Shown: positions 2,276 to 61,879 of the stretch, piece by piece
Position numbering within the stretch: position 1 is the first letter of the stretch
Layout of the letters: each line of letters starts with the position of its first letter
Source: Chaetoderma sp. LZ-2023a
Lineage: Eukaryota; Mollusca; Caudofoveata; Chaetodermatida; Chaetodermatidae
DNA length: 64,000 nucleotides
NCBI GenBank assembly: GCA_034401795.1
Contig: CM067372.1
Span: forward strand, 21,814,795-21,878,794
Reading direction: 5' to 3'
Notes under the pieces: model-generated
Database searches by the model: none
What the model was told of the DNA's origin: nothing
What the model saw: the letters and a program-made list of their open reading frames with translations, nothing else
Made by a program: the position numbers and the translations under genes

Positions 2276-2611
2276 CTACATTTGACCTTCATCATATGGT
2301 GAATAAATCCTGCCCATAGCAAATGATGGCATTGAATGTGATTGTCCAGCCTGTCGGTGGTCTATAGCTCTAATAATCATCTCCACCATGTTGAATTGGT
2401 GGTCTGTTTCCTCTCGTTTCTGGCTTTCTACTGTCTCCATTTCTGCCTTATTCAGGTCAAATCTCTGTTTATTCAAATCCAGTTTTCGTCTTTCAAGATC
2501 AACAATCTTGTCTTCAGCCTTCTCATCTGCTTCACTGAATCCATCCATGGCTGATTTGAGTGCTACTTCTAACCTTGTCCTCAGCCTTCTCATCTGCTTC
2601 ACTGAATCCAC
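2276..2611 (-). pseudogene. C-terminal exon part of a Myb/SANT-like family gene (coiled-coil tail)
   Basis: An open frame on the minus strand ends at the stop at 2,276. The unique part, 2,276-2,505 (about 76 residues), follows directly from one copy of the 67-bp unit: AMDGFSEADEKAEDK runs without a break into IVDLERRKLDLNKQRF, then KAEMETVESQKREETDHQF and NMVEMIIRAIDHRQ. This is a charged, heptad-rich coiled coil. Myb/SANT-like DNA-binding proteins (Myb_DNA-bind_4 / MSANTD type) commonly end in such a helix after a basic and acidic linker, and the upstream half of such a protein lies at 46,517-46,905. The ATG at 2,611 is inside the repeat and is not a credible start. The frame upstream is broken by the array, so I label it a pseudogene. 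It would be a normal exon if the array is spliced out. Confidence 0.55.
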
Positions 2612-5600
2612 CCATGGCTGATTTGAGTGCTACTTCTAACCTTGTCTTCAGCCTTCTCATCTGCTTCACTGAATCCACCCATGGCTGATTTGAGTGCTAC
2701 TTCTAACCTTGTCTTCAGCCTTCTCATCTGCTTCACTGAATCCACCCATGGCTGATTTGAGTGCTACTTCTAACCTTGTCTTCAGCCTTCTCATTTGCTT
2801 CACTGAATCCACCCATGGCTGATTTGAGTGCTACTTCTAACCTTGTCTTCAGCCTTCTCATCTGCTTCACTGAATCCACCCATGGCTGATTTGAGTGCTA
2901 CTTCTAACCTTGTCTTCAGCCTTCTCATCTGCTTCACTGAATCCATCCATGGCTGATTTGAGTGCTACTTCTAACCTTGTCTTCAGCCTTCTCATTTGCT
3001 TCACTGAATCCATCCATGGCTGATTTGAGTGCTACTTCTAACCTTGTCTTCAGCCTTCTCATTTGCTTCACTGAATCCATCCATGGCTGATTTGAGTGCT
3101 ACTTCTAACCTTGTCTTCAGCCTTCTCATCTGCTTCACTGAATCCACCCATGGCTGATTTGAGTGCTACTTCTAACCTTGTCTTCAGCCTTCTCATCTGC
3201 TTCACTGAATCCATCCCATGGCTGATTTGAGTGCTACTTCTAACCTTGTCTTCAGCCTTCTCATCTGCTTCACTGAATCCACCCATGGCTGATTTGAGTG
3301 CTACTTCTAACCTTGTCTTCAGCCTTCTCATCTGCTTCACTGAATCCATCCATGGCTGATTTGAGTGCTACTTCTAACCTTGTCTTCAGCCTTCTCATCT
3401 GCTTCAGTGAATCCACCCATGGCTGATTTGAGTGCTACTTCTAACCTTGTCTTCAGCCTTCTCATCTGCTTCACTGAATCCATCCATGGCTGATTTGAGT
3501 GCTACTTCTAACCTTGTCTTATGCTATCTCATCTGCTTCACTGAATCCATCCATGGCTGATTTGAGTGCTACTTCTAACCTTGTCTTCAGCCTTCTCATC
3601 TGCTTCACTGAATCCACCCATGGCTGATTTGAGTGCTACTTCTAACCTTGTCTTCAGCCTTCTCATCTGCTTCACTGAATCCATCCATGGCTGATTTGAG
3701 TGCTACTTCTAACCTTGTCTTCAGCCTTCTCATCTGCTTCACTGAATCCACCCATGGCTGATTTGAGTGCTACTTCTAACCTTGTCTTCAGCCTTCTCAT
3801 CTGCTTCACTGAATCCATCCATGGCTGATTTGAGTGCTACTTCTAACCTTGTCTTCAGCCTTCTCATCTGCTTCACTGAATGCATCCATGGCTGATTTGA
3901 GTGCTACTTCTAACCTTGTCTTATGCCTTCTCATCTGCTTCACTGAATCCATCCATGGCTGATTTGAGTTCTACTTCTAATCTTGTCTTCAGCCTTCTCA
4001 TTTGCTTCACTGAATCCATCCATGGCTGATTTGAGTGCTACTTCTAACCTTGTCTTCAGCCTTCTCATCTGCTTCACTGAATCCATCCATGGCTGATTTG
4101 AGTGCTACTTCTAACCTTGTCTTCAGCCTTCTCATCTGCTTCACTGAATCCATCCATGGCTGATTTGAGTGCTACTTCTAACCTTGTCTTCAGTCTTCTC
4201 ATCTGCTTCACTGAATCCATCCATGGCTGATTTGAGTGCTACTTCTAACCTTGTCTTCAGCCTTCTCATTTGCTTCACTGAATCCATCCATGGCTGATTT
4301 GAGTGCTACTTCTAACCTTGTCTTCAGTCTTCTCATCTGCTTCACTGAATCCACCCATGGCTGATTTGAGTGCTACTTCTAACCTTGTCTTCAGCCTTCT
4401 CATCTGCTTCACTGAATCCACCCATGGCTGATTTGAGTGCTACTTCTAACCTTGTCTTCAGTCTTCTCATCTGCTTCACTGAATCCACCCATGGCTGATT
4501 AGAGTGCTACTTCTAACCTTGTCTTCAGCCTTCTCATCTGCTTCACTGAATCCACCCATGGCTGATTTGAGTGCTACTTCTAACCTTGTCTTCAGTCTTC
4601 TCATCTGCTTCACTGAATCCACCCATGGCTGATTTGAGTGCTACTTCTAACCTTGTCTTCAGCCTTCTCATCTGCTTCACTGAATCCATCCATGGCTGAT
4701 TTGAGTGCTACTTCTAACCTTGTCTTCAGTCTTCTCATCTGCTTCACTGAATCCACCCATGGCTGATTTGAGTGCTACTTCTAACCTTGTCTTCAGCCTT
4801 CTCATCTGCTTCACTGAATCCATCCATGGCTGATTTGAGTGCTACTTCTAACCTTGTCTTCAGCCTTCTCATCTGCTTCACTGAATCCACCCATGGCTGA
4901 TTTGAGTGCTACTTCTAACCTTGTCTTCAGCCTTCTCATCTGCTTCACTGAATCCACCCATGGCTGATTTGAGTGCTACTTCTAACCTTGTCTTCAGCCT
5001 TCTCATCTGCTTCACTGAATCCATCCATGGCTGATTTGAGTGCTACTTCTAACCTTGTCTTCAGTCTTCTCATCTGCTTCACTGAATCCACCCATGGCTG
5101 ATTTGAGTGCTACTTCTAACCTTGTCTTCAGCCTTCTCATCTGCTTCACTGAATCCATCCATGGCTGATTTGAGTGCTACTTCTAACCTTGTCTTCAGTC
5201 TTCTCATCTGCTTCAGTGAATCCACCCATGGCTGATTTGAGTGCTACTTCTAACCTTGTCTTCAGCCTTCTCATCTGCTTCACTGAATCCACCCATGGCT
5301 GATTTGAGTGCTACTTCTAACCTTGTCTTCAGCCTTCTCATCTGCTTCACTGAATCCACCCATGGCTGATTTGAGTGCTACTTCTAACCTTGTCTTCAGC
5401 CTTCTCATCTGCTTCACTGAATCCACCCATGGCTGATTTGAGTGCTACTTCTAACCTTGTCTTCAGCCTTCTCATCTGCTTCACTGAATCCATCCATGGC
5501 TGATTTGAGTGCTACTTCTAACCTTGTCTTCAGTCTTCTCATCTGCTTCACTGAATCCACCCATGGCTGATTTGAGTGCTACTTCTAACCTTGTCTTCAG

Positions 5601-8600
5601 CCTTCTCATCTGCTTCACTGAATCCATCCATGGCTGATTTGAGTGCTACTTCTAACCTTGTCTTCAGTCTTCTCATCTGCTTCACTGAATCCATCCATGG
5701 CTTATTTGAGTGCTACTTCTAACCTTGTCTTATGCCTTCTCATCTGCTTCACTGAATCCATCCATGGCTGATTTGAGTGCTACTTCTAACCTTGTCTTCA
5801 GCCTTCTCATCTGCTTCACTGAATCCACCCATGGCTGATTTGAGTGCTACTTCTAACCTTGTCTTCAGCCTTCTCATCTGCTTCACTGAATCCATCCATG
5901 GCTGATTTGAGTGCTACTTCTAACCTTGTCTTATGCTATCTCATCTGCTTCACTGAATCCATCCATGGCTGATTTGAGTGCTACTTCTAACCTTGTCTTC
6001 AGCCTTCTCATCTGCTTCACTGAATCCACCCATGGCTGATTTGAGTGCTACTTCTAACCTTGTCTTCAGCGTTCTCATCTGCTTCACTGAATCCATCCAT
6101 GGCTGATTTGAGTGCTACTTCTAATCTTGTCTTCAGCCTTCTCATTTGCTTCACTGAATCCATCCATGGCTGATTTGAGTGCTACTTCTAACCTTGTCTT
6201 CAGCCTTCTCATCTGCTTCACTGAATCCATCCATGGCTGATTTGAGTGCTACTTCTAACCTTGTCTTCAGCCTTCTCATCTGCTTCACTGAATCCATCCA
6301 TGGCTGATTTGAGTGCTACTTCTAACCTTGTCTTCAGTCTTCTCATCTGCTTCACTGAATCCATCCATGGCTGATTTGAGTGCTACTTCTAACCTTGTCT
6401 TCAGCCTTCTCATCTGCTTCACTGAATCCATCCATGGCTGATTTGAGTGCTACTTCTAACCTTGTCTTCAGCCTTCTCATCTGCTTCACTGAATCCACCC
6501 ATGGCTGATTTGAGTGCTACACTGAATCCACCCATGGCTGATTTGAGTGCTACTTCTAACCTTGTCTTCAGCCTTCTCATCTGCTTCACTGAATCCATCC
6601 ATGGCTGATTTGAGTGCTACTTCTAACCTTGTCTTCAGCCTTCTCATCTGCTTCACTGAATCCACCCATGGCTGATTTGAGTGCTACTTCTAACCTTGTC
6701 TTCAGCCTTCTCATCTGCTTCACTGAATCCATCCATGGCTGATTTGAGTGCTACTTCTAACCTTGTCTTCAGTCTTCTCATCTGCTTCACTGAATCCACC
6801 CATGGCTGATTTGAGTGCTACTTCTAACCTTGTCTTCAGTCTTCTCATCTGCTTCACTGAATCCACCCATGGCTGATTTGAGTGCTACTTCTAACCTTGT
6901 CTTCAGCCTTCTCATCTGCTTCACTGAATCCACCCATGGCTGATTTGAGTGCTACTTCTAACCTTGTCTTCAGCCTTCTCATCTGCTTCACTGAATCCAC
7001 CCATGGCTGATTTGAGTGCTACTTCTAACCTTGTCTTCAGCCTTCTCATTTGCTTCACTGAATCCACCCATGGCTGATTTGAGTGCTACTTCTAACCTTG
7101 TCTTCAGCCTTCTCATCTGCTTCACTGAATCCACCCATGGCTGATTTGAGTGCTACTTCTAACCTTGTCTTCAGCCTTCTCATCTGCTTCACTGAATCCA
7201 TCCATGGCTGATTTGAGTGCTACTTCTAACCTTGTCTTCAGTCTTCTCATCTGCTTCACTGAATCCACCCATGGCTGATTTGAGTGCTACTTCTAACCTT
7301 GTCTTCAGCCTTCTCATCTGCTTCACTGAATCCATCCATGGCTGATTTGAGTGCTACTTCTAACCTTGTCTTCAGCCTTCTCATCTGCTTCACTGAATCC
7401 ATCCATGGCTTATTTGAGTGCTACTTCTAACCTTGTCTTATGCCTTCTCATCTGCTTCACTGAATCCATCCATGGCTGATTTGAGTGCTACTTCTAACCT
7501 TGTCTTCAGCCTTCTCATCTGCTTCACTGAATCCACCCATGGCTGATTTGAGTGCTACTTCTAACCTTGTCTTCAGCCTTCTCATCTGCTTCACTGAATC
7601 CATCCATGGCTGATTTGAGTGCTACTTCTAACCTTGTCTTCAGCCTTCTCATCTGCTTCACTGAATCCATCCATGGCTGATTTGAGTGCTACTTCTAACC
7701 TTGTCTTCAGCCTTCTCATCTGCTTCACTGAATCCACCCATGGCTGATTTGAGTGCTACTTCTAACCTTGTCTTCAGCGTTCTCATCTGCTTCACTGAAT
7801 CCATCCATGGCTGATTTGAGTGCTACTTCTAACCTTGTCTTCAGCCTTCTCATCTGCTTCACTGAATGCATCCATGGCTGATTTGAGTGCTACTTCTAAC
7901 CTTGTCTTATGCCTTCTCATCTGCTTCACTGAATCCATCCATGGCTGATTTGAGTGCTACTTCTAACCTTGTCTTCAGCCTTCTCATCTGCTTCACTGAA
8001 TCCATCCATGGCTGATTTGAGTGCTACTTCTAACCTTGTCTTCAGCCTTCTCATCTGCTTCACTGAATCCATCCATGGCTGATTTGAGTGCTACTTCTAA
8101 CCTTGTCTTCAGCCTTCTCATCTGCTTCACTGAATCCATCCATGGCTGATTTGAGTGCTACTTCTAACCTTGTCTTCAGTCTTCTCATCTGCTTCACTGA
8201 ATCCATCCATGGCTGATTTGAGTGCTACTTCTAACCTTGTCTTCAGCCTTCTCATCTGCTTCACTGAATCCATCCATGGCTGATTTGAGTGCTACTTCTA
8301 ACCTTGTCTTCAGCCTTCTCATCTGCTTCACTGAATCCACCCATGGCTGATTTGAGTGCTACTTCTAACCTTGTCTTCAGCTTTCTCATCTGCTTCACTG
8401 AATCCACCCATGGCTGATTTGAGTGCTACTTCTAACCTTGTCTTCAGCCTTCTCATCTGCTTCACTGAATCCACCCATGGCTGATTTGAGTGCTACTTCT
8501 AACCTTGTCTTCAGCCTTCTCATCTGCTTCACTGAATCCACCCATGGCTGATTTGAGTGCTACTTCTAACCTTGTCTTCAGCCTTCTCATCTGCTTCACT

Positions 8601-11600
8601 GAATCCATCCATGGCTGATTTGAGTGCTACTTCTAACCTTGTCTTCAGCCTTCTCATCTGCTTCACTGAATCCACCCATGGCTGATTTGAGTGCTACTTC
8701 TAACCTTGTCTTCAGCCTTCTCATCTGCTTCACTGAATCCACCCATGGCTGATTTGAGTGCTACTTCTAACCTTGTCTTCAGCCTTCTCATCTGCTTCAC
8801 TGAATCCATCCATGGCTGATTTGAGTGCTACTTCTAACCTTGTCTTCAGCCTTCTCATCTGCTTCACTGAATCCATCCATGACTGATTTGAGTGCTACTT
8901 CTAACCTTGTCTTCAGCCTTCTCATCTGCTTCACTGAATCCACCCATGGCTGATTTGAGTGCTACTTCTAACCTTGTCTTCAGCCTTCTCATCTGCTTCA
9001 CTGAATCCACCCATGGCTGATTTGAGTGCTACTTCTAACCTTGTCTTCAGCCTTCTCATCTGCTTCACTAAATCCACCCATGGCTGATTTGAGTGCTACT
9101 TCTAACCTTGTCTTCAGCCTTCTCATTTGCTTCACTGAATCCATCCATGGCTGATTTGAGTGCTACTTCTGACCTTGTCTTCAGCCTTCTCATTTGCTTC
9201 ACTGAATCCATCCATGGCTGATTTGAGTACTACTTCTAACCTTGTCTTCAGCCTTCTCATCTGCTTCACTGAATCCATCCATGGCTGATTTGAGTGCTAC
9301 TTCTAACCTTGTCTTATGCTATCTCATCTGCTTCACTGAATCCATCCATGGCTGATTTGAGTGCTACTTCTAACCTTGTCTTCAGCCTTCTCATCTGCTT
9401 CACTGAATCCACCCATGGCTGATTTGAGTGCTACTTCTAACCTAGTCTTCAGCCTTCTCATCTGCTTCACTGAATCCATCCATGGCTGATTTGATTTGCG
9501 TGCTACTTCTAACCTTGTCTTCAGCTTCTCATCTGCTTCACTGAATCCATCCATGGCTGATTTGAGTGCTACTTCTATCCTTGTCTTCAGCCTTCTCATC
9601 TGCTTCACTGAATGCATCCATGGCTGATTTGAGTGCTACTTCTAACCTTGTCTTATGCCTTCTCATCTGCTTCACTGAATCCATCCATGGCTGATTTGAG
9701 TGCTACTTCTAATCTTGTCTTCAGCCTTCTCATTTGCTTCACTGAATCCATCCATGGCTGATTTGAGTGCTACTTCTAACCTTGTCTTCAGCCTTCTCAT
9801 CTGCTTCACTGAATCCATCCATGGCTGATTTGAGTGCTACTTCTAACCTTGTCTTCAGCCTTCTCATCTGCTTCACTGAATCCATCCATGGCTGATTTGA
9901 GTGCTACTTCTAACCTTGTCTTCAGTCTTCTCATCTGCTTCACTGAATCCATCCATGGCTGATTTGAGTGCTACTTCTAACCTTGTCTTCAGCCTTCTCA
10001 TCTGCTTCACTGAATCCATCCATGGCTGATTTGAGTGCTACTTCTAACCTTGTCTTCAGTCTTCTCATCTGCTTCACTGAATCCACCCATGGCTGATTTG
10101 AGTGCTACTTCTAACCTTGTCTTCAGCCTTCTCATCTGCTTCACTGAATCCACCCATGGCTGATTTGAGTGCTACTTCTAACCTTGTCTTCAGTCTTCTC
10201 ATCTGCTTCACTGAATCCACCCATGGCTGATTTGAGTGCTACTTCTAACCTTGTCTTCAGTCTTCTCATCTGCTTCACTGAATCCACCCATGGCTGATTT
10301 GAGTGCTACTTCTAACCTTGTCTTCAGCCTTCTCATCTGCTTCACTGAATCCACCCATGGCTGATTTGAGTGCTACTTCTAACCTTGTCTTCAGCCTTCT
10401 CATCTGCTTCACTGAATCCACCCATGGCTGATTTGAGTGCTACTTCTAACCTTGTCTTCAGCCTTCTCATCTGCTTCACTGAATCCATCCATGGCTGATT
10501 TGAGTGCTACTTCTAACCTTGTCTTCAGCCTTCTCATCTGCTTCACTGAATCCATCCATGGCTGATTTGAGTGCTACTTCTAACCTTGTCTTCAGCCTTC
10601 TCATCTGCTTCACTGAATCCACCCATGGCTGATTTGAGTGCTACTTCTAACCTAGTCTTCAGCCTTCTCATCTGCTTCACTGAATCCATCCATGGCTGAT
10701 TTGAGTGCTACACCTAACCTTGTCTTATGCTATCTCATCTGCTTCACTGAATCCATCCATGGCTGATTTGAGTGCTACTTCTAACCTTGTCTTCAGCCTT
10801 CTCATCTGCTTCACTGAATCCACCCATGGCTGATTTGAGTGCTACTTCTAACCTTGTCTTCAGCGTTCTCATCTGCTTCACTGAATCCATCCATGGCTGA
10901 TTTGAGTGCTACTTCTATCCTTGTCTTCAGCCTTCTCATCTGCTTCACTGAATGCATCCATGGCTGATTTGAGTGCTACTTCTAACCTTGTCTTATGCCT
11001 TCTCATCTGCTTCACTGAATCCATCCATGGCTGATTTGAGTTCTACTTCTAATCTTGTCTTCAGCCTTCTCATTTGCTTCACTGAATCCATCCATGGCTG
11101 ATTTGAGTGCTACTTCTAACCTTGTCTTCAGCCTTCTCATCTGCTTCACTGAATCCATCCATGGCTGATTTGAGTGCTACTTCTAACCTTGTCTTCAGCC
11201 TTCTCATCTGCTTCACTGAATCCATCCATGGCTGATTTGAGTGCTACTTCTAACCTTGTCTTCAGCCTTCTCATCTGCTTCACTGAATCCATCCATGGCT
11301 GATTTGAGTGCTACTTCTAACCTTGTCTTCAGTCTTCTCATCTGCTTCACTGAATCCATCCATGGCTGATTTGAGTGCTACTTCTAACCTTGTCTTCAGC
11401 CTTCTCATCTGCTTCACTGAATCCACCCATGGCTGATTTGAGTGCTACTTCTAACCTTGTCTTCAGCCTTCTCATCTGCTTCACTGAATCCACCCATGGC
11501 TGATTTGAGTGCTACTTCTAACCTTGTCTTCAGCCTTCTCATTTGCTTCACTGAATCCATCCATGGCTGATTTGAGTGCTACTTCTAACCTTGTCTTCAG

Positions 11601-14600
11601 CCTTCTCATCTGCTTCACTGAATCCACCCATGGCTGATTTGAGCGCTACTTCTAACCTTGTCTTCAGCCTTCTCATCTGCTTCACTGAATCCACCCATGG
11701 CTGATTTGAGTGCTACTTCTAACCTTGTCTTCAGCCTTCTCATCTGCTTCACTGAATCCATCCATGGCTGATTTGAGTGCTACTTCTAACCTTGTCTTCA
11801 GCCTTCTCATTTGCTTCACTGAATCCATCCATGACTGATTTGAGTGCTACTTCTAACCTTGTCTTCAGCCTTCTCATCTGCTTCACTGAATCCACCCATG
11901 GCTGATTTGAGTGCTACTTCTAACCTTGTCTTCAGCCTTCTCATCTGCTTCACTGAATCCACCCATGGCTGATTTGAGTGCTACTTCTAACCTTGTCTTC
12001 AGCCTTCTCATCTGCTTCACTAAATCCACCCATGGCTGATTTGAGTGCTACTTCTAACCTTGTCTTCAGCCTTCTCATCTGCTTCACTGAATCCATCCAT
12101 GGCTGATTTGAGTGCTACTTCTAACCTTGTCTTCAGCCTTCTCATCTGCTTCACTGAATCCACCCATGGCTGATTTGAGTGCTACTTCTAACCTTGTCTT
12201 CAGTCTTCTCATCTGCTTCACTGAATCCATCCATGGCTGATTTGAGTGCTACTTCTAACCTTGTCTTCAGCCTTCTCATTTGCTTCACTGAATCCATCCA
12301 TGGCTGATTTGAGTGCTACTTCTAACCTTGTCTTCAGCCTTCTCATCTGCTTCACTGAATCCACCCATGGCTGATTTGAGTGCTACTTCTAACCTTGTCT
12401 TCAGCTTTCTCATCTGCTTCACTGAATCCACCGATGGCTGATTTGAGTGCTACTTCTAATCTTGTCTTCAGCATTCTCATCTGCGTCACTGAATCCACCC
12501 ATGGCTGATTTGAGTGCTACTTCTAACCTTGTCTTCAGCCTTCTCATCTGCTTCACTGAATCCACCCATGGCTGATTTGAGTGCTACTTCTAACCTTGTC
12601 TTCAGCCTTCTCATCTGCTTCACTGAATCCATCCATGGCTGATTTGAGTGCTACTTCTAACCTTGTCTTCAGCCTTCTCATCTGCTTCACTGAATTCACC
12701 CATGGCTGATTTGAGTGCTACTTCTAACCTTGTCTTCAGCCTTCTCATCTGCTTCACTGAATCCACCCATGACTGATTTGAGTGCTACTTCTAACCTTGT
12801 CTTCAGCCTTCTCATTTGCTTCACTGAATCCATCCATGGCTGATTTGAGTGCTACTTCTAACCTTGTCTTCAGCCTTCTCATTTGCTTCACTGAATCCAT
12901 CCATGACTGATTTGAGTGCTACTTCTAACCTTGTCTTCAGCCTTCTCATCTGCTTCACTGAATCCACCCATGGCTGATCTGAGCGCTACTTCTAACCTTG
13001 TCTTCAGCCTTCTCATCTGCTTCACTGAATGCACCCATGACTGATTTGAGCGCTACTTCTAACCTTGTCTTCAGCCTTCTCATCTGCTTCACTAAATCCA
13101 CCCATGGCTGATTTGAGTGCTACTTCTAACCTTGTCTTCAGCCTTCTCATTTGCTTCACTGAATCCATCCATGGCTGATTTGAGTGCTACTTCTGACCTT
13201 GTCTTCAGCCTTCTCATTTGCTTCACTGAATCCATCCATGGCTGATTTGAGTACTACTTCTAACCTTGTCTTCAGCCTTCTCATCTGCTTCACTGAATCC
13301 ATCCATGGCTGATTTGAGTGCTACTTCTAACCTTGTCTTATGCTATCTCATCTGCTTCACTGAATCCATCCATGGCTGATTTGAGTGCTACTTCTAACCT
13401 TGTCTTCAGCCTTCTCATCTGCTTCACTGAATCCACCCATGGCTGATTTGAGTGCTACTTCTAACCTAGTCTTCAGCCTTCTCATCTGCTTCACTGAATC
13501 CATCCATGGCTGATTTGAGTGCTACACCTAACCTTGTCTTATGCTATCTCATCTGCTTCACTGAATCCATCCATGGCTGATTTGAGTGCTACTTCTAACC
13601 TTGTCTTCAGCCTTCTCATCTGCTTCACTGAATCCACCCATGGCTGATTTGAGTGCTACTTCTAACCTTGTCTTCAGCGTTCTCATCTGCTTCACTGAAT
13701 CCATCCATGGCTGATTTGAGTGCTACTTCTATCCTTGTCTTCAGCCTTCTCATCTGCTTCACTGAATGCATCCATGGCTGATTTGAGTGCTACTTCTAAC
13801 CTTGTCTTATGCCTTCTCATCTGCTTCACTGAATCCATCCATGGCTGATTTGAGTTCTACTTCTAATCTTGTCTTCAGCCTTCTCATTTGCTTCACTGAA
13901 TCCATCCATGGCTGATTTGAGTGCTACTTCTAACCTTGTCTTCAGCCTTCTCATCTGCTTCACTGAATCCATCCATGGCTGATTTGAGTGCTACTTCTAA
14001 CCTTGTCTTCAGCCTTCTCATCTGCTTCACTGAATCCATCCATGGCTGATTTGAGTGCTACTTCTAACCTTGTCTTCAGTCTTCTCATCTGCTTCACTGA
14101 ATCCATCCATGGCTGATTTGAGTGCTACTTCTAACCTTGTCTTCAGCCTTCTCATTTGCTTCACTGAATCCATCCATGGCTGATTTGAGTGCTACTTCTA
14201 ACCTTGTCTTCAGTCTTCTCATCTGCTTCACTGAATCCACCCATGGCTGATTTGAGTGCTACTTCTAACCTTGTCTTCAGCCTTCTCATTTGCTTCACTG
14301 AATCCACCCATGGCTGATTTGAGTGCTACTTCTAACCTTGTCTTCAGTCTTCTCATCTGCTTCACTGAATCCACCCATGGCTGATTAGAGTGCTACTTCT
14401 AACCTTGTCTTCAGTCTTCTCATCTGCTTCACTGAATCCACCCATGGCTGATTTGAGTGCTACTTCTAATCTTGTCTTCAGCATTCTCATCTGCGTCACT
14501 GAATCCACCCATGGCTGATTTGAGTGCTACTTCTAACCTTGTCTTCAGCCTTCTCATCTGCTTCACTGAATCCACCCATGGCTGATTTGAGTGCTACTTC

Positions 14601-19683: not shown

Positions 19684-20012
19684 TCACCCATGGGCTGATT
19701 TGAGTGCTACTTCTAACCTTGTCTTCAGCCTTCTCATCTGCTTCACTGAATCCATCCATGGCTTATTTGAGTGCTACTTCTAACCTTGTCTACAGTCTTC
19801 TCATCTGCTTCACTGAATCCACCCATGGCTGATTTGAGTGCTACTTCTAACCTTGTCTTCAGCCTTCTCATCTGCTTCACTGAATCCATCCATGGCTTAT
19901 TTGAGTGCCACTTCTAACCTTGTCTTCAGTCTTCTCATCTGCTTCACTGAATCCACCCATGGCTGATTTGAGTGCTACTTCTAACCTTGTCTTATGCCTT
20001 CTCATCTGCTTC

Positions 20013-31200: not shown

Positions 31201-32250
31201 CACTGAATCCACCCATGGCTGATTTGAGGGCTACTTCTAACCTTGTCTTCAGCCTTCTCATCTACTTCACTGAATCCACCCATGGCTGATTTGAGTGCTA
31301 CTTCTAACCTTGTCTTCAGGCTTCTCATCTGCTTCACTGAATCCATCCATGGCTTATTTGAGTGCTACTTCTAACCTTGTCTTCAGTCTTCTCATCTGCT
31401 TCACTGAATCCACCCATGGCTGATTTGAGTGCTACTTCTAACCTTGTCTTATGCCTTCTCATCTGCTTCACTGAATCCACCCATGGCTGATTTGAGTGCC
31501 ACTTCTAACCTTGTCTTCAGCCTTCTCATCTGCTTCACTGAATCCATCCATGGCTGATTTGAGTGCTACTTCTAACCTTGTCTTCAGTCTTCTCATCTGC
31601 TTCACTGAATCCACCCATGGCTGATTTGAGTGCTACTTCTAACCTTGTCTTCAGCCTTCTCATCTGCTTCACTGAATCCACCCATGGCTGATTTGAGTGC
31701 TACTTCTAACCGTGTCTTCAGCCTTCTCATCTGCTTCACTGAATCCACCCATGACTGATTTGAGTGCTACTTCTAACCTTGTCTTCAGCCTTCTCATTTG
31801 CTTCACTGAATCCATCCATGGCGGATTTGAGTGCTACTTCTAACCTTGTCTTCAGCCTTCTCATCTGCTTCACTGAATCCACCCATGGCTGATTTGAGCG
31901 CTACTTCTAACCTTGTCTTCAGCCTTCTCATCTGCTTCACTGAATCCACCCATGGCTGATTAGAGTGCTACTTCTAACCTTGTCTTCAGTCTTCTGATCT
32001 GCTTCACTGAATCCATCCATGGCTGATTTGAGTGCTACTTCTAATCTTGTCTTCAGTCTTCTCATCTGCTTCACTGAATCCACCCATGGCTGATTTGAGT
32101 GCTACTTCTAACGTTGTCTTCAGCCTTCTCATCTGCTTCACTGAATCTATCCATGGCTTATTTGAGTGCTACTTCTAACCTTGTCTTCAGCCTTCTCATC
32201 TGCTTCACTGAATCCATCCATGGCTTATTTGAGTGCTACTTCTAACCTTG
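22180..32250. repeat. 5,025-bp (75-unit) tandem higher-order repeat, two near-identical copies
   Basis: The rare TTATGTTATC (23,276 / 28,301), TTCCCATCT (T at 22,211 / 27,236), GAATCTATCC (27,118 / 32,143) and the GATTAGAG units all recur at 5,025 bp, exactly 75 x 67. Copy 1 is about 22,180-27,205 and copy 2 about 27,205-32,230. By eye I found only a few differences: 22,564 A versus 27,589 G, 25,417 A versus 30,442 T, and 26,971 C versus 31,996 G. Edges are uncertain by about 30 bp. Confidence 0.9.
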
Positions 32251-34615: not shown

Positions 34616-37149
34616 CTGCTTCACTGAATCCATCCATGGCTTATTTGAGTGCTACTTCTATCCTTGTCTTCAGTCTTCTCATCTGCTTCACTGAATCCAT
34701 CCATGGCTGATTTGAGTGCTACTTCTAATCTTGTCTTCAGTCTTCTCATCTGCTTCACTGAATCCACCCATGGCTGATTTGAGTGCTACTTCTAACGTTG
34801 TCTTCAGCCTTCTCATCTGCTTCACTGAATCCATCCATGGCTTATTTGAGTGCTACTTCTAACCTTGTCTTCAGCCTTCTCATCTGCTTCACTGAATCCA
34901 CCCATGGCTGATTTGAGTGCTACTTCTAACCTTGTCTTCAGCCTTCTCATCTGCTTCACTGAATCCATCCATGGCTTATTTGAGTGCTACTTCTAACCTT
35001 GTCTTCAGTCTTCTCATCTGCTTCACTGAATCCACCCATGGCTGATTTGAGTGCTACTTCTAACCTTGTCTTATGCCTTCTCATGTGCTTCACTGAATCC
35101 ACCCATGGCTGATTTGAGTGCTACTTCTAACCTTGTCTTCAGCCTTCTCATCTGCTTCACTGAATCCATCCATGGCTGATTTGAGTGCTACTTCTAACCT
35201 TGTCTTCAGTCTTCTCATCTGCTTCACAGAATCCACCCATGGATGATTTGAGTGCTACTTCTAACCTTGTCTTCAGCCTTCTCATCTGCTTCACTGAATC
35301 CATCCATGGCTGATTTGAGTGCTACTTCTAACCTTGTCTTCAGTATTCTCATCTGCTTCACTGAATACATCCATGGCTTATTTGAGTGCTACTTCTAACC
35401 TTGTCTTATGCCTTCTCATCTGCTTCACTGAATCCATCCATGGCTGATTTGAGTGCTACTTCTAACCTTGTCTTATGCCTTCTCATCTGTTTCACTGAAT
35501 CCATCCATGGCTGATTTGAGTGCTACTTCTAACCTTGTCTTATGCCTTCTCATCTGCTTCACTGAATCCATCCATGGCTTATTTGAGTGCTACTTCTAAC
35601 ATTGTCTTCAGTCTTCTCATCTGCTTCACTGAATCCACCCATGGCTGATTTGAGTGCTACTTCTAACCTTGTCTTCAGCCTTCTCATCTGCTTCACTGAA
35701 TCCATCCATGGCTTATTTGAGTGCTACTTCTAACCTTGTCTTCAGTCTTCTCATCTGCTTCACTGAATCCACCCATGGCTGATTTGAGTGCTAATTCTAA
35801 CCTTGTCTTATGCCTTCTCATGTGCTTCACTGAATCCACCCATGGCTGATTTGAGTGCTACTTCTAACCTTGTCTTCAGCCTTCTCATCTGCTTCACTGA
35901 ACCCATCCATGGCTGATTTGAGTGCTACTTCTAACCTTGTCTTCAGTCTTCTCATCTGCTTCAAAGAATCCACCCATGGATGATTTGAGTGCTACTTCTA
36001 ACCTTGTCTTCAGCCTTCTCATCTGCTTCACTGAATCCATCCATGGCTGATTTGAGTGCTACTTCTAACCTTGTCTTCAGTCTTCTCATCTGCTTCACTG
36101 AATACATCCATGGCTTATTTGAGGGATACTTCTAACCTTGTCTTATGCCTTCTCATCTGCTTCACTGAATCCATCCATGGCTGATTTGAGTGCTACTTCT
36201 AACCTTGTCTTATGCCTTCTCATCTGTTTCACTGAATCCATCCATGGCTGATTTGAGTGCTACTTCTAACCTTGTCTTCAGCCTTCTCATCTGCTTCACT
36301 GAATCCATCCATGGCTTATTTGAGTGCTACTTCTAACCTTGTCTTATGCCTTCTCATCTGCTTCACTGAATCCATCCATGGCTGATTTGAGTGCTACTTC
36401 TAACCTTGTCTTCAGCCTTCTCATCTGCTTCACTGAATCCACCCATGGCTGATTTGAGCGCCACTTCTAACCTTGTCTTCAGCCTTCTCATCTGCTTCAC
36501 TGAATCCACCCATGACTGATTTGAGTGCTACTTCTAACCTTGTCTTCAGCCTTCTCATATGCTTCACTGAATCCATCCATTGCTGATTTGAGTGCTACTT
36601 CTAACCTTGTCTTCAGCCTTCTCATTTGCTTCACTGAATCCATCCATGACTGATTTGAGTGCTACTTCTAACCTTGTCTTCAGCCTTCTCATCTGCTTCA
36701 CTGAATCCACCCATGGCTGATTTGAGCGCTACTTATAACCTTGTCTTCAGCCTTCTCATCTGCTTCACTGAATCCACCCATGGCTGATTTGAGTGCTACT
36801 TCTAACCTTGTCTTCAGCCTTCTCATTTGCTTCACTGAATCCATCCATGGCTGATTTGAGTGCTACTTCTAACCTTGTCTTCAGCCTTCTCATCTGCTTC
36901 ACTGAATCCACCCATGGCTGATTTGAGTGCTACTTCTAACCTTGTCTTCATCATTCTCATTTGCTTCACTGAATCCATCCATGGCTGATTTGAGTGCTAC
37001 TTCTAACCTTGTCTTCAGCCTTCTCATCTGCTTCACTTAATCCACCCATGGCTGATTTGAGTGCTACTTCTAACCTTGTCTTCAGCCTTCTCATCTGCTT
37101 CACTGAATCCATCCATGCCTGATTTGAGTGCTACTTCTAACCTTGTCTT

Positions 37150-40100
37150 ATGCCTTCTCATCAGCTTCACTGAATCCATCCATGGCTGATTTGAGTGCTA
37201 CTTCTAACCTTGTCTTCAGCCTTCTCATCTGCTTCACTGAATCCATCCATGGCTGATTTGAGTGCTACTTCTAACCTTGTCTTCAGCGTTCTCATCTGCT
37301 TCACTGAATCCATCCATGGCTGATTTGAGTGCTACTTCTAACCTTGTCTTCAGCCTTCTCATCTGCTTCACTGAATCCATCCATGGCTGATTTGAGTGCT
37401 ACTTCTAACCTTGTCTTATGCCTTCTCATCTGCTTCACTGAATCCATCCATGGCTGATTTGAGTTCTACTTCTAATCTTGTCTTCAGCCTTCTCATTTGC
37501 TTCACTGAATCCATCCATGGCTGATTTGAGTGCTACTTCTATCCTTGTCTTCAGCCTTCTCATCTGCTTCACTGAATCCATCCATGGCTGATTTGAGTGC
37601 TACTTCTAACCTTGTCTTCAACCTTCTCATCTGCTTCACTGAATCCATCCATGGCTGATTTGAGTGCTACTTCTAACCTTGTCTTCAGCCTTCTCATTTG
37701 CTTCACTGAATCCATCCATGGCTGATTTGAGTGCTACTTCTAACCTTGTCTTCAGCCTTCTCATCTGCTTCACTGAATCCACCCATGGCTGATTTGAGTG
37801 CTACTTCTAACCTTGTCTTCAGCCTTCTCAACTGCTTCACTGAATCCACCCATGGCTGATTTGAGTGCTACTTCTAACCTTGTCTTCAGCCTTCTCATCT
37901 GCTTCACTGAATCCATCCATGGCTGATTTGAGTGCTACTTCTAACCTTGTCTTCAGCCTTCTCATTTGCTTCACTGAATCCATCCATGGCTGATTTGAGT
38001 GCTACTTCTAACCTTGTCTTCATCCTTCTCATCTGCTTCACTGAATCCATCCATGGCTGATTTGAGTGCTACTTCTAACCTTGTCTTCAGCCTTCTCATC
38101 TGCTTCACTGAATCCATCCATGACTGATTTGAGTGCTACGTCTAACCTTGTCTTCAGCCTTCTCATTTGCTTCACTGAATCCACCCATGGCTGATTTGAG
38201 TGCTACTTCTAATCTTGTCTTCAGTCTTCTCATCTGCTTCACTGAATCCACCCATGGCTGATTTGAGTGCTACTTCTAATCTTGTCTTCAGCCTTCTCAT
38301 CTGCTTCACTGAATCCATCCATGGCTTATTTGAGTGCTACTTCTAACCTTGTCTTCAGCCTTCTCATTTGCTTTACTGAATCCATCCATGGCTGATTTGA
38401 GTGCTACTTCTAACCTTGTCTTCAGCCTTCTCATCTGCTTCACTGAATCCACCCATGGCTGATTTGAGTGCTACTTCTAACCTTGTCTTCAGTCTTCTCA
38501 TCTGCTTCACTGAATCCATCCATGGCTGATTTGAGTGCTACTTCTAACCTTGTCTTATGCCTTCTCATCAGCTTCACTGAATCCATCCATGGCTGATTTG
38601 AGTGTTACTTCTAACCTTGTCTTCAGCCTTCTCATCTGCTTCACTGAATCCATCCATGGCTGATTTGAGTGCTACTTCTAACCTTGTCTTCAGCGTTCTC
38701 ATCTGCTTCACTGAATCCATTCATGGCTGATTTGAGTGCTACTTCTAACCTTGTCTTCAGCCTTCTCATCTGCTTCACTGAATCCATCCATGGCTGATTT
38801 GAGTGCTACTTCTAACCTTGTCTTATGCCTTCTCATCTGCTTCACTGAATCCATCCATGGCTGATTTGAGTTCTACTTCTAATCTTGTCTTCAGCCTTCT
38901 CATTTGCTTCACTGAATCCATCCATGGCTGATTTGAGTGCTACTTCTATCCTTGTCTTCAGCCTTCTCATCTGCTTCACTGAATCCATCCATGGCTGATT
39001 TGAGTGCTACTTCTAACCTTGTCTTCAACCTTCTCATCTGCTTCACTGAATCCATCCATGGCTGATTTGAGTGCTACTTCTAACCTTGTCTTCAGCCTTC
39101 TCATTTGCTTCACTGAATCCATCCATGGCTGATTTGAGTGCTACTTCTAACCTTGTCTTCAGCCTTCTCATCTGCTTCACTGAATCCACCCATGGCTGAT
39201 TTGAGTGCTACTTCTAACCTTGTCTTCAGCCTTCTCAACTGCTTCACTGAATCCACCCATGGCTGATTTGAGTGCTACTTCTAACCTTGTCTTCAGTCTT
39301 CTCATCTGCTTCACTGAATCCATCCATGGCTGATTTGAGTGCTACTTCTAACCTTGTCTTATGCCTTCTCATCAGCTTCACTGAATCCATCCATGGCTGA
39401 TTTGAGTGCTACTTCTAACCTTGTCTTCAGCCTTCTCATCTGCTTCACTGAATCCATCCATGGCTGATTTGAGTGCTACTTCTAACCTTGTCTTCAGCGT
39501 TCTCATCTGCTTCACTGAATCCATCCATGGCTGATTTGAGTGCTACTTCTAACCTTGTCTTCAGCCTTCTCATCTGCTTCACTGAATCCATCCATGGCTG
39601 ATTTGAGTGCTACTTCTAACCTTGTCTTATGCCTTCTCATCTGCTTCACTGAATCCATCCATGGCTGATTTGAGTTCTACTTCTAATCTTGTCTTCAGCC
39701 TTCTCATTTGCTTCACTGAATCCATCCATGGCTGATTTGAGTGCTACTTCTATCCTTGTCTTCAGCCTTCTCATCTGCTTCACTGAATCCATCCATGGCT
39801 GATTTGAGTGCTACTTCTAACCTTGTCTTCAACCTTCTCATCTGCTTCACTGAATCCATCCATGGCTGATTTGAGTGCTACTTCTAACCTTGTCTTCAGC
39901 CTTCTCATTTGCTTCACTGAATCCATCCATGGCTGATTTGAGTGCTACTTCTAACCTTGTCTTCAGCCTTCTCATCTGCTTCACTGAATCCACCCATGGC
40001 TGATTTGAGTGCTACTTCTAACCTTGTCTTCAGCCTTCTCAACTGCTTCACTGAATCCACCCATGGCTGATTTGAGTGCTACTTCTAACCTTGTCTTCAG

Positions 40101-41900
40101 CCTTCTCATCTGCTTCACTGAATCCATCCATGGCTGATTTGAGTGCTACTTCTAACCTTGTCTTCAGCCTTCTCATTTGCTTCACTGAATCCATCCATGG
40201 CTGATTTGAGTGCTACTTCTAACCTTGTCTTCATCCTTCTCATCTGCTTCACTGAATCCATCCATGGCTGATTTGAGTGCTACTTCTAACCTTGTCTTCA
40301 GCCTTCTCATCTGCTTCACTGAATCCATCCATGACTGATTTGAGTGCTACTTCTAACCTTGTCTTCAGCCTTCTCATTTGCTTCGCTGAATCCATCCATG
40401 GCTGATTTGAGTGCTACTTCTAACCTTGTCTTCAGCCTTCTCATCTGCTTCACTGAATCCACCCATGGCTGATTTGAGTGCTACTTCTAACCTTGTCTTC
40501 AGCCTTCTCATCTGCTTCACTGAATCCATCCATGGCTGATTTGAGTGCTACTTCTAACCTTGTCTTATGCCTTCTCATCTGCTTCACTGAATCCATCCAT
40601 GGCTGATTTGAGTGCTACTTCTAACCTTGTCTTCAGCCTTCTCATCTGCTTCACTGAATCCACCCATGGCTGATTTGAGTGCTACTTCTAACCTTGTCTT
40701 CAGCGTTCTCATCTGCTTCACTGAATCCATCCATGGCTGATTTGAGTGCTACTTCTAACCTTGTCTTCAGCCTTCTCATCTGCTTCACTGAATCCATCCA
40801 TGGCTGATTTGAGTGCTACTTCTAACCTTGTCTTATGCCTTCTCATCTGCTTCACTGAATCCATCCATGGCTGATTTGAGTTCTACTTCTAATCTTGTCT
40901 TCAGCCTTCTCATTTGCTTCACTGAATCCATCCATGGCTGATTTGAGTGCTACTTCTATCCTTGTCTTCAGCCTTCTCATCTGCTTCACTGAATCCATCC
41001 ATGGCTGATTTGAGTGCTACTTCTAACCTTGTCTTCAACCTTCTCATCTGCTTCACTGAATCCATCCATGGCTGATTTGAGTGCTACTTCTAATCTTGTC
41101 TTCAGCCTTCTCATCTGCTTCACTGAATCCACCCATGGCTGATTTGAGTGCTACTTCTAACCTTGTCTTCAGCCTTCTCATCTGCTTCACTGAATCCATC
41201 CATGGCTGATTTGAGTGCTACTTCTAACCTTGTCTTATGCCTTCTCATCTGCTTCACTGAATCCATCCATGGCTGATTTGAGTTCTACTTCTAATCTTGT
41301 CTTCAGCCTTCTCATTTGCTTCACTGAATCCATCCATGGCTGATTTGAGTGCTACTTCTATCCTTGTCTTCAGCCTTCTCATCTGCTTCACTGAATCCAT
41401 CCATGGCTGATTTGAGTGCTACTTCTAACCTTGTCTTCAACCTTCTCATCTGCTTCACTGAATCCATCCATGGCTGATTTGAGTGCTACTTCTAACCTTG
41501 TCTTCAGTCTTCTCATCTGCTTCACTGAATCCATCCATGGCTGATTTGAGTGCTACTTCTAACCTTGTCTTCAGCGTTCTCATCTGCTTCACTGAATCCA
41601 TCCATGGCTGATTTGAGTGCTACTTCTAACCTTGTCTTCAGCCTTCTCATCTGCTTCACTGAATCCATCCATGGCTGATTTGAGTGCTACTTCTAACCTT
41701 GTCTTATGCCTTCTCATCTGCTTCACTGAATCCATCCATGGCTGATTTGAGTTCTACTTCTAATCTTGTCTTCAGCCTTCTCATTTGCTTCACTGAATCC
41801 ATCCATGGCTGATTTGAGTGCTACTTCTATCCTTGTCTTCAGCCTTCTCATCTGCTTCACTGAATCCATCCATGGCTGATTTGAGTGCTACTTCTAACCT
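37150..41900. repeat. mixed 1,407 / 804 / 1,206 / 402-bp higher-order repeats
   Basis: CATCAGCTTC occurs at 37,159, 38,566 and 39,370 (spacings 1,407 = 21 units and 804 = 12 units). TCAACCTTCTC occurs near 37,621, 39,028, 39,832, 41,038 and 41,439 (spacings 1,407, 804, 1,206 and about 402 bp). All are whole unit numbers, so this block grew by successive duplications of different lengths. Confidence 0.8.
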
Positions 41901-44900
41901 TGTCTTCAGCCTTCTCATCTGCTTCACTGAATCCATCCATGGCTGTTTTGAGTGCTACTTCTAACCTTGTCTTCAGTCTTCTCATCTGCTTCACTGAATC
42001 CATCCATGGCTGATTTGAGTGCTACTTCTAACCTTGTCTTCAGCCTTCTCATTTGCTTCACTGAATCCACCCATGGCTGATTTGAGTGCTACTTCTAATC
42101 TTGTCCTCAGTCTTCTCATCTGCTTCACTGAATCCACCCATGGCTGATTTGAGTGCTACTTCTAATCTTGTCTTCAGCCTTCTCATCTTCTTCACTGAAT
42201 CCATCCATGGCTTATTTGAGTGCTACTTCTAACCTTGTCTTCAGCCTTCTCATCTGCTTCACTGAATCCACCCATGGCTGATTTGAGTGCTACTTCTAAC
42301 CTTGTCTTCAGCCTTCTCATCTGCTTCACTGAATCCATCCATGGCTTATTTGAGTGCTACTTCTAACCTTGTCTTCAGTCTTCTCATCTGCTTCACTGAA
42401 TCCACCCATGGCTGATTTGAGTGCTACTTCTAACCTTGTCTTATGCCTTCTCATCTGCTCCACTGAATCCACCCATGGCTGATTTGAGTGCTACTTCTAA
42501 CCTTGTCTTATGCCTTCTCATCTGCTTCACTGAATCCATCCATGGCTGATTTGAGTGCTACTTCTAACCTTGTCTTATGCCTTCTCATCTGTTTCACTGA
42601 ATCCATCCATGGCTGATTTGAGTGCTACTTCTAACCTTGTCTTCAGACTTCTCATCTGCTTCACTGAATCCATCCATGGCTTATTTGAGTGCTACTTCTA
42701 ACCTTGTCTTATGCCTTCTCATCTGCTTCACTGAATCCATCCATGGCTAATTTGAGTGCTACTTCTAACCTTGTCTTCAGCCTTCTCATCTGCTTCACTG
42801 AATCCACCCAGGGCTGATTTGAGTGCTACTTCTAACCTTGTCTTCAGCCTTCTCATCTGCTTCACTGAATCCATCCATGGCTGATTTGAGTGCTACTTCT
42901 AACCTTGTCTTCAGCCTTCTCATCTGCTTCACTGAATCCACCCATGGCTGATTTGAGTGCTACTTCTAACCTTGTCTTCAGCCTTCTCATCTGCTTCACT
43001 GAATCCATCCATGGCTGATTTGAGTGCTACTTCTAACCTTGTCTTATGCCTTCTCATCTGTTTCACTGAATCCATCCATGGATGATTTGAGTGCTACTTC
43101 TAACCTTGTCTTCAGCCTTCTCATATGCTTCACTGAATCCATCCATGGCTTATTTGAGTGCTACATCTAACCTTGTCTTATGCCTTCTCATCTGCTTCAC
43201 TGAATCCATCCATGGCTGATTTGAGTGCTACTTCTAACCTTGTCTTCAGCCTTCTCATCTGCTTCACTGAATCCACCCATGGCTGATTTGAGTGCTACTT
43301 CTAACCTTGTCTTCAGCCTTCTCATCTGCTTCACTGAATCCACCCATGGCTGATTTGAGTGCTAATTCTAACCTTGTCTTCAGCCTTCTCATCTGCTTCA
43401 CTGAATCCATCCATGGCTGATTTGAGTGCTACATCTAACCTTGTCTTCAGCCTTCTCATTTGCTTCACTGAATCCATCCATGGCTGATTTGAGTGCTACT
43501 TCTAACCTTGTCTTCAGCCTTCTCATCTGCTTCACTGAATCCACCCATGGCTGATTTGAGTGCTACTTCTAACCTTGTCTTCAGCCTTCTCATCTGCTTC
43601 ACTGAATCCATCCATGGCTTATTTGAGTGCTACTTCTAACCTTGTCTTCAGTCTTCTCATCTGCATCACTGAATCCACCCATGGCTGATTTGAGTGCTAC
43701 TTCTAACCTTGTCTTCAGCCTTCTCATCTGCTTCACTGAATCCATCCATGGCTTATTTGAGTGCTACTTCAAACCTTGTCTTCAGTCTTCTCATCTGCTT
43801 CACTGAATCCACCCATGGCTGATTTGAGTGCTACTTCTAACCTTGTCTTCAGCCTTCTCATCTGCTTCACTGAATCCATCCATGGCTGATGTGAGTGCTA
43901 CTTCTAACCTTGTCTTCAGCCTTCTCATCTGCTTCACTGAATCCATCCATGGCTGATGTGAGTGCTACTTCTAACCTTGTCTTCAGTCTTCTCATCTGCT
44001 TCACTGAATCCATCCATGGCTGATTTGAGTGCTACTTCTAACCTTGTCTTCAGTCTTCTCATCTGCTTCACTGAATACATCCATGGCTTATTTGAGTGCC
44101 ACTTCCAACCTTGTCTTATGCCTTCTCATCTGCTTCACTGAATCCATCCATGGCTTATTTGAGTGCCACTTCCAACCTTGTCTTATGCCTTCTCATCTGC
44201 TTCACTGAATCCATCCATGGCTGATTTGAGTGCTACTTCTAACCTTGTCTTATGCCTTCTCATCTGTTTCACTGAATCCATCCATGGCTTATTTGAGTAC
44301 TACTCCTAACCTTGTCTTATGCCTTCTCATCTGCTTCACTGAATCCATCCATGGCTGATTTGAGTGCTACTTCTAACCTTGTCTTCAGCCTTCTCATCTG
44401 CTTCACTGAATCCACCCATGGCTGATTTGAGTGCTACTTCTAACCTTGTCTTCAGCCTTCTCATCTGCTTCACTGAATCCATCCATGGCTGATTTGAGTG
44501 CTACTTCTATCCTTGTCTTCAGCCTTCTCATTTGCTTCACTGAATCCACCCATGGCTGATTTGAGTGCTACTTCTAACCTTGTCTTCAGCCTTCTTATCT
44601 GCTTCACTGAATCCACCCATGGCTGATTTGAGTGCTACTTCTAACCTTGTCTTCAGCCATCTCATTTGCTTCACTGAATCCACCCATGGCTGATTTGAGT
44701 GCTACTTCTAACCTTGTCTTCAACCTTCTCATCTGCTTCACTGAATCCATCCATGGCTGATTTGAGTGCTACTTCTGACCTTGTCTTATGCCTTCTCATC
44801 TGCTTCACTGAATCCATCCATGGCTGATTTGAGTGCTACTTCTAACCTTGTCTTCAGCCTTCTCATCTGCTTCACTGAATCCACCCATGGCTGATTTGAG

Positions 44901-46516
44901 TGCTACTTCTAACCTTGTCTTCAGCCTTCTCATTTGCTTCACTGAATCCACCCATGGCTGATTTGAGTGCTACTTCTAACCTTGTCTTCAGCCTTCTCAT
45001 CTGCTTCACTGAATCCATCCATGGCTTATTTGAGTGCTACTTCAAACCTTGTCTTCAGTCTTCTCATCTGCTTCACTGAATCCATCCATGGCTGATTTGA
45101 GTGCTACTCCTAACCTTGTCTTCAGCCTTCTCATTTGATTTACTGAATCCATCCATGGCTGATTTGAGTGCTACTTCTAACCTTGTCTTCAGCCTTCTCA
45201 TTTGCTTCACTGAATCCATCCATGGCTGATTTGAGTGCTACTTCTAACCTTGTCTTCAGCCTTCTCATTTGCTTCACTGAATCCATCCATGGCTGATTTG
45301 AGTGCTACTTCTAACCTTGTCTTCAGCCTTCTCATCTGCTTCACTGAATCCACCCATGGCCTATTTGAGTGCTACTTCTAACTTTGTCTTCCACTTTCTC
45401 ATTTGCTTCACTGAATCCATCCATGGCTGATTTGAGTGCTACTTCTAACCTTGTCTTCAGCCTTCTCATCTGCTTCACTGAATCCACCCATGGCTGATTT
45501 GAGTGCTACTTCTAACCTTGTCTTCAGCCTTCTCATTTGCTTCACTGAATCCATCCATGGCTGATTTGAGTACTACTTCTAACCTTGTCTTCAGCCTTCT
45601 CGTTTGCTTCACTGAATCCATCCATGGCTGATTTGAGTGCTACTTCTAACCTTGTCTTCAGCCTTCTCATTTGCTTCACTGAATCCATCCATGTCTGATT
45701 TGAGTGCTACTTCTAACCTTGTCTTCAGCCTTCTCATTTGCTTCACTGAATCCATCCATGGCTGATTTGAGTGCTACTTCTAACCTTGTCTTCAGCCTTC
45801 TCATTTGCTTCACTGAATCCATCCATGGCTGATTTGAGTGCTACTTCTAACCTTGTCTTCAGCCTTCTCATTTGCTTCACTGAATCCACCCATGGCTGAT
45901 TTGAGTGCTACTTCTAACCTTGTCTTCAGCCTTCTCATTTGCTTCACTGAATCCATCCATGGCTGATTTGAGTGCTACTTCTAACCTTGTCTTCAGCCTT
46001 CTCATTTGCTTCACTGAATCCATCCATGGCTGATTTGAGTGCTACTTCTAACCTTGTCTTCAGCCTTCTCATTTGCTTCACTGAATCCATCCATGGCTGA
46101 TTTGAGTGCTACTTCTAACCTTGTCTTCAGCCTTCTCATTTGCTTCACTGAATCCATCCATGGCTGATTTGAGTACTACTTCTAACCTTGTCTTCAGCCT
46201 TCTCATCTGCTTCACTGAATCCATCCATGGCTTATTTGAGTGCTACTTCTAACCTTGTCTTCAGCCTTCTCATCTGCTTCACTGAATCCACCCATGGCTG
46301 ATTTGAGTGCTACTTCTAACCTTGTCTTCAGCCTTCTCATCTGCTTCACTGAATCCATCCATGGCTGATTTGAGTGCTACTTCTAATCTTGTCTTATGCC
46401 TTCTCATCTGCTTCACTTAATCCATCCATGGCTGATTTGAGTGCTACTTCTAATCTTGTCTTATGCCTTCTCATCTGCCTCACTGAATCCATCCATGGCT
46501 GATTTGAGTGCTACTT

Positions 46517-46905
46517 CTAATCTGGTCTTATGCACCATTTTCTTTTTCTCTTTACTTTGCCTTTGTCGTCAACTGATTCTTTCTTCTTCTTTTGTTCTAC
46601 AGAACTTTCGTCAATTTGTCCTTCTGTGTCTAATGACTCTTTCTCATTTCTGCGAACATCTTCCTTCTCAAGAGGTGGGATGGCACTGACATCAACATTG
46701 ATAGATTGTCGGTTGCCTATTGACTCGTTATCATCATCATTTTCACTTTCATCATTTTCACTTCCATCAGCTACTTCTTTTAAAGCGTTCTTACTTACTA
46801 TCACCTTCAAGGGCGATACAGCGGGTCTACTCCCGAGAATGGAATCTAACACGTCAAAGAATTTGCAGGTTTTTCTACCCTTTCCACTCTTTTTCCTTTT
46901 TCTCA
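46517..46905 (-). pseudogene. upstream exon part of a Myb/SANT-like (MSANTD-type) family gene, cut off by the array
   Basis: The minus-strand open frame reads RKRKKSGKGRKTCKFFD, VLDSILGSRPAVSP, then a polar acidic linker (ENDESENDDDNE), a Lys/Glu-rich stretch and KRKRKWCIRPD before a TAG at 46,517-46,519. The GRKTC-(F/Y)-(D/E)-LD-ILG-RPA pattern is what follows the DNA-binding trihelix in animal Myb/SANT-like (Myb_DNA-bind_4) proteins, many of them derived from Harbinger-associated factors. The open frame extends to an ATG at 46,969, but TTTACATACAG (last base 46,906) is a plausible 3' splice site and the residues before it look non-coding, so I start the exon at 46,905. The DNA-binding domain exon itself was not found up to 49 kb. 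The stop lies at the first base of array-type sequence, and insertion of one base there would run into LEVALKSAM. It is either truncated by frameshift or rescued by splicing. Confidence 0.55.
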
Positions 46906-46969
46906 CTGTATGTAAATTCGCTATACGTCCAAACGACCAAATGTGCACACCATAGCCCAAAATACACAC

Positions 46970-47934: not shown

Positions 47935-48006
47935 GCTCGTCCGTGTGTGCGTGTGCGCGTACGTGCGTACGTGCGAGGGTGCGTGCGTACGTGCGTGCGT
48001 GTGTGC
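47935..48006. repeat. CGTG/CGTA-rich microsatellite
   Basis: Alternating purine-pyrimidine GTGCGTGTGCGCGTACGTGC-type sequence. It is prone to Z-DNA. The open frames across it are repeat artefacts. Confidence 0.85.
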
Positions 48007-61870: not shown

Positions 61871-61879
61871 TACGCCCTC

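Follow-up and report, generated by a model that had tools for sequence, protein, structure and literature searches.

How does a 67-bp repeat, whose period is no multiple of three, come to fill some 44 kb between two stretches that appear to encode the halves of one protein? In the window (the whole 64,000-nucleotide stretch of the Chaetoderma sp. LZ-2023a assembly analyzed here), the original prediction had seen a minisatellite grown from the coding exon of a Myb/SANT-like host gene. The evidence set out below makes it very probable that what lies here is a Harbinger-type DNA transposon copy, truncated and inactive, in whose Myb-like ORF a 67-bp segment became an array of about 650 units (Table 1).

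Table 1. Positions of the array, its scaffold gap, and the transposon remnants on either side, in window coordinates
Feature	Position	Strand	Basis
3′ part of Myb-like ORF (IVDLERRKLDLNKQ...)	2161..2506	-	
67-bp tandem array, 649 unit starts	2507..46529	-	TRF and unit segmentation
16-mer oligonucleotide remnant, contig end	19152..19167	-	
Scaffold gap in array, 500 N	19168..19667	.	
Inverted partner of the 16-mer, other contig end	19668..19683	+	
5′ part of Myb-like ORF (end of Myb region, acidic linker, basic stretch)	46535..46901	-	
Transposon 5′ end, terminal repeat from near 47156	46898..47160	-	

The predicted minisatellite of roughly 650 copies was recovered by both TRF, which reported 656 copies, and segmentation at a fixed anchor, where 642 of the 648 spacings between consecutive unit starts were exactly 67 bp. 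The remaining spacings were 33, 66, 68, 71, 72, and 624 bp, the last of these spanning the gap with its 500 N. The unit corresponds to the segment encoding LEVALKSAMDGFSEADEKAEDK in the Myb-like ORF of the Harbinger family described below. Individual units differ from the consensus by a mean of 2.5 percent and from one another by approximately 4.4 percent, a value almost independent of the distance between the units compared. The non-triplet period was likewise upheld, and all three minus-strand frames through the array are closed (1110, 1120, and 1111 stops), with a longest open stretch of 100 aa when the gap is left out. At an offset of 75 units, the array exhibits runs of 42 and 22 identical units, and smaller block repeats occur at offsets of 23, 33, and others, so whole blocks of the array were duplicated; the largest of these duplications (75 units, 5 kb) appears to be recent, judging from its identity. 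No function of the array is evident, and neither RNA families (at the gathering score) nor tRNAs were found in the 64-kb window.

The tandem array is real, as predicted, but its 44 kb are not contiguous sequence: two pieces were scaffolded together across the gap, the 5′ one carrying 400 units and the 3′ one 248, and the length and unit number of the array are for this reason estimates of the assembly. The gap is flanked by the 16-mer GCATGACACGTGTGTT, which is paired with its own inverse 516 bp away. This 16-mer has 2644 exact copies in the 2.44-Gb assembly as compared to none for a control pattern (the same letters read backwards). Among 100 listed places, 30 form 15 minus/plus pairs spaced 516 to 518 bp apart and 70 are single, and two of these pairs that were fetched (L081 and L082) each enclose exactly 500 N. 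Given the copy number, the empty control, and the pairs around 500 N, the 16-mer is an oligonucleotide left at contig ends. It is probably a sequencing or library barcode, presumably PacBio bc1015, and a literature search with it as a 16-mer or a 17-mer returned no match. The gap and the oligonucleotide remnants at both contig ends are what could be cited for false joining or false duplication as the source of the array length, an explanation we consider very improbable. Hundreds of units join their own flank on either side of the gap, and the gap edges match neither each other nor other places unusually well: their best matches differ by 0.9 and 2.0 percent over 15 units, as compared to a 5th to 95th percentile range of 0 to 3.5 percent for 40 other blocks. 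Overlapping contig ends at the gap were also considered, and the edge comparison found none.

Whether the sequences on either side of the array belong together was examined in the remainder of the genome. Searches of the flank proteins against their own assembly (E up to 10) yielded 98 matches for the right flank and at least 201 for the left flank, array units included (150 of 797 candidates scored). Eighteen loci were aligned together with the window, many distant matches being left out and locus L013 on contig C2 being set aside as it holds an array of its own. In 17 of these 18 copies, the flanks are adjacent, with the 67-bp segment present once, carrying small indels in three. The remaining copy (L011, on contig C9) continues into other DNA after the 5′ tract, its alignment ending at the seed repeat discussed below; a third array at this place was considered and rejected on account of that other DNA and the lack of any TRF array in 1.5 kb. 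Two proteins with the source names Saccostrea cucullata and Haliotis asinina (P0001 and P0002), the only two hits of that protein search, have the same flank order and the segment once. One ORF across the flanks, with the segment single in genomic copies and in both homologues, supports expansion of a coding segment in situ. The flanks were parts of one frame, as originally predicted, and the possibility that they are not one gene in related sequences was looked into and did not hold. The upstream flank encodes the expected GRKTC..LD.ILG..RPA motif, acidic linker, and basic stretch, and the downstream flank encodes DKIVDLERRK.... Two details of the original prediction failed. KRKRKWCIRPD, proposed as the frame joining the flanks, is an out-of-frame reading caused by a 1-bp gap relative to other copies just upstream of the array, where those copies encode KVKSEKKRVRKTRLEVALKSVMDGF / KSEKKRVRKTRLEVAL. 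The expected trihelix is absent from the window; only the last 16 of the first 110 residues of the related copy L010 were found there by tblastn.

On several lines of sequence evidence, the ORF shared by these copies is the Myb-like one of a Harbinger-type DNA transposon present in multiple copies, and not part of a host gene. Four 7-kb stretches align mutually from one sharp 5′ boundary onward, and this boundary carries GCTCTGTTTATAC.... Fourteen copies were tested for the 5′ terminal repeat: 13 have it (incompletely in one), and L040 was the one in which it was not found. The repeat is also present in the window. Of nine stretches searched for an inverted 3′ end, two have it, namely L072 and L077 (which lies downstream of L015). 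It was not found in the other seven (L069, L070, L071, L074, L075, L076, and L078), which may reflect truncation or a mistaken guess of its place. Of the two copies with both ends, L015/L077 has TAA on both sides if one extra base is assigned to the terminal repeat, and the 3-bp flanks of L072 do not match. A second ORF lies on the opposite strand in L070 and L072, and Pfam detected DDE_Tnp_4 in two pieces of L070 (E 5e-12 and 4e-12) and in L040 (E 3e-8). Myb_DNA-bind_4 was detected in L010 (4e-20) and in L037 (2e-21), a relative with an open frame of 341 aa. The multicopy family, the terminal repeats, DDE_Tnp_4 on the opposite strand, and Myb_DNA-bind_4 together argue for a transposon ORF. 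This plan of a DDE transposase and a Myb-like protein is described for Harbinger elements in PMC9179366, as are inverted terminal repeats and a 3-bp target duplication, of which one copy here may be a case. The terminal-repeat similarity extends over 59 aligned bases in L072, slightly above the usual 25 to 50 bp. In contrast to the elements described in that source, what remains of the window copy is truncated and carries an array inside it. L037, L038, and other matches to the right flank form a more distant subfamily whose Myb-like ORFs are open, with 341-aa frames at 8 of the 98 matches; this subfamily is perhaps recently active.

The window copy itself is a dead element. The 5′ part of its ORF is 88 percent identical to L010 and 87 percent identical to the C2 copy, and relative to these two copies, a stretch of approximately 370 bp has been lost at ∼46,898 to 46,901 (about 200–225 bp relative to L069–L072), and with it the start of the ORF and the greater part of the Myb domain. 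No Myb domain was detected by Pfam in the two window ORF pieces scanned. On the other side, a TAG at 2276 to 2278 stops the left flank where other copies read on, transposon homology in the window ends at 2161, and no transposase piece was found in the window copy beyond that position. The two window flanks differ from the single-unit majority sequence by 9.1 percent, which ranks second from the top among 19, and by 7.6 percent, which falls within the top five. With the Myb domain mostly gone, the transposase absent, and the frames closed, the window copy is, as judged from its sequence, a truncated, frame-broken, and inactive remnant, and a non-triplet period is what would be expected in a copy under no coding constraint. 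We therefore see hardly any room for reading the array as a minisatellite in an exon of an MSANTD-type host gene that is functional now or was so until lately. That reading can draw on flanks and unit forming one ORF in other copies and in the two mollusc-named proteins, but the family is multicopy, with terminal repeats and a transposase; the window copy has the 1-bp gap, an early stop, and a mostly lost Myb domain; and the array has neither an open frame through it nor a conserved coding context. What stands of the proposed expansion of a gene's own exon is that a coding segment grew in situ; the ORF concerned is that of a multicopy transposon, and this copy of it is dead.

The limits of the amplified segment coincide with a short repeat already present in the single-unit state. 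In the majority sequence of the copies, the imperfect 11-bp repeats AAGACCAGGTT / AAGACAAGATT lie 67 bp apart, within longer tracts at the 5′ edge (GCGTAAGACCAGGTT) and the 3′ edge (GCTGAAGACAAGATT) of the segment, which agree at 9 of 11 bases in the core and at 11 of 15 overall. Pairs of 11-mers as good as this, 20 to 200 bp apart, number 95 of 125,614 in the same majority sequence, a proportion that overstates the rarity of the repeat since the breakpoint had been inspected before it was picked. Eleven of the 18 copies have a spacing of exactly 67 bp, and three with small indels have 61, 62, and 70 bp; in the other four, the motif was not found twice. The junctions between units of both arrays are mixtures of the two tracts, the pattern that repeated exchange within the tract would give. 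The pair AAGACCAGGTT / AAGACAAGATT is the likely seed of the first duplication. The single-unit copy L040 (on C17) has the 5′ tract AAGACAAGGTT, which is like the 3′ tract at 10 of 11 bases.

To count arrays throughout the 2.44-Gb assembly, two unit-junction patterns were used, one allowing up to three mismatches in 30 bases and the other up to two in 33. The former gave 4 forward and 706 reverse matches (710), of which 644 lie in the window, 56 belong to the C2 array, and 10 (4 forward and 6 reverse) are single copies. The latter gave 3 and 668 (671), comprising 606 in the window, 56 on C2, and 9 single. Since these junction counts close, there are two arrays in the assembly and no others at the stringency of the patterns, which more diverged arrays would escape. 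The second array (L013) consists of 56 units and lies within a different copy of this transposon, the 5′ terminal repeat of which gives a full match to the probe. Occurrence of the unit elsewhere, as an independent dispersed satellite, had been named as evidence against growth in place. One further array does exist, but it sits within a copy of the same transposon, and a free dispersed satellite is unsupported, as both arrays are embedded in transposon copies and the counts close. At the edge of the C2 array, the units are graded, the last being of the family type (G36 A45 A54) and the next two intermediate, leading through A36 A45 to A36 G45, as in-place growth would give.

Two accounts of how the window array (on contig C14) and the C2 array are related can be weighed against one another. 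In one, which we give an even chance, both descend from a single transposon copy that was already duplicated when it moved, with expansion following at each site. A36 and G45 occur in most units of both arrays and together in none of the 17 single-unit copies, which favors such descent and counts against separate origins, although A36 sits at a CpG and is present in 5 of the 17 single copies, and G45 in 1 of 17. The array-adjacent 5′ flanks of C14 and C2 also have in common a few states seldom seen in other copies, C2 ranks second (5′ flank) and third (3′ flank) of 18 in nearness to C14, and in the 5′ tree C2 falls, with weak support, together with C14 and L028. The flank trees are near-stars with low support, however, and the 3′ tree does not pair C2 with C14. 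The distances between C2 and C14 (10.7 and 10.9 percent) resemble those separating C14 from the closest single-unit copies (10.6 and 10.3 percent), C2 lies near the family majority, and it has neither C14's large deletion nor its 3′ truncation. The graded C2 edge likewise counts against an inherited duplication. The alternative, to which we assign a little under an even chance, is that each array had its own origin at one and the same short repeat, which would be a predisposed site of the transposon family. The same edge gradient speaks for this account, as do the mere 3 unit types common to C14 (143 types) and C2 (12 types) and the state of position 22, which is C in most C14 units and T in all 56 C2 units. 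L040 is nearest to both C14 (0.106) and C2 (0.053) in the 5′ flank and to neither in the 3′ flank.

Two steps, one at the seed and one after it, would account for the array. The first tandem duplication may have arisen by slippage or by microhomology-mediated repair between the two tracts, and the resulting shift by a 67-bp unit would have closed the frame, unless the copy was already dead. From two units on, unequal exchange and block duplication could have enlarged the array free of coding constraint, and the 75-unit (5-kb) and smaller block repeats would be traces of this enlargement stage. A more general, tentative proposal, which we hold to be possible though rather less than an even bet, is that the 11- to 15-bp repeat in the Myb-like ORF is a predisposed satellite seed from which the segment was amplified independently in at least two copies. 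If so, births of new minisatellites would be predictable from transposon sequence.

Origin of satellites from transposons, including their coding parts, and involvement of microhomology are described in PMC9659126 and PMC12628747, where arrays are seeded inside transposons, as here, and microhomology and unequal exchange are among the mechanisms proposed. As compared to such satellites generally, one assembly suffices here to read the single-unit state, the seed repeat, and the number of arrays genome-wide. A related case outlined in PMC7320549 is the Chenopodium satellite CficCl-61-40, derived from the tnp2 region of the CACTA-like element Jozin, in which a short transposon fragment was likewise the starting monomer of tandem arrays. 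CficCl-61-40 differs in belonging to a plant, a CACTA element, and a transposase region and in being the most abundant satellite of its genome, whereas the present unit derives from the Myb-like ORF of a Harbinger-type element and forms two arrays, both inside transposon copies. A search of one library with the exact words minisatellite, Harbinger, and Myb-like together found no paper. Transposon-derived satellites are thus known, and what is unusual here is the size, the readable seed, and the second array at the same seed. The birth of satellites is usually inferred from finished arrays; this one assembly holds single-unit copies, a probable seed, a 56-unit array graded at its edge, and one of ∼650 units in which blocks were duplicated, so that sister species could be used to test the order in which the steps occurred. 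The locus also cautions that transposon ORFs can be miscalled as host genes.

Additional features of the assembly and the window were recorded along the way. A COX1 search of the assembly gave just two matches (L079 and L080), whose open frames are 690 and 708 aa long, and found no mitochondrial contig; both matches lie on C18, a contig of at least 4.65 Mb that is probably a bacterial genome in the assembly, from a symbiont or a contaminant. Tetranucleotide-rich simple arrays (CATC, CATT, CGTG, CACG, and TCGT) surround the locus at 1370 to 1497, 47,938 to 48,006, 48,390 to 48,497, and 61,878 to 62,206. Another tandem array in the window, at 49,028 to 51,650, comprises 82 copies of a 32-bp unit (TRF), and all 61 places in the assembly that match the consensus of this unit with up to two mismatches fall within the window.
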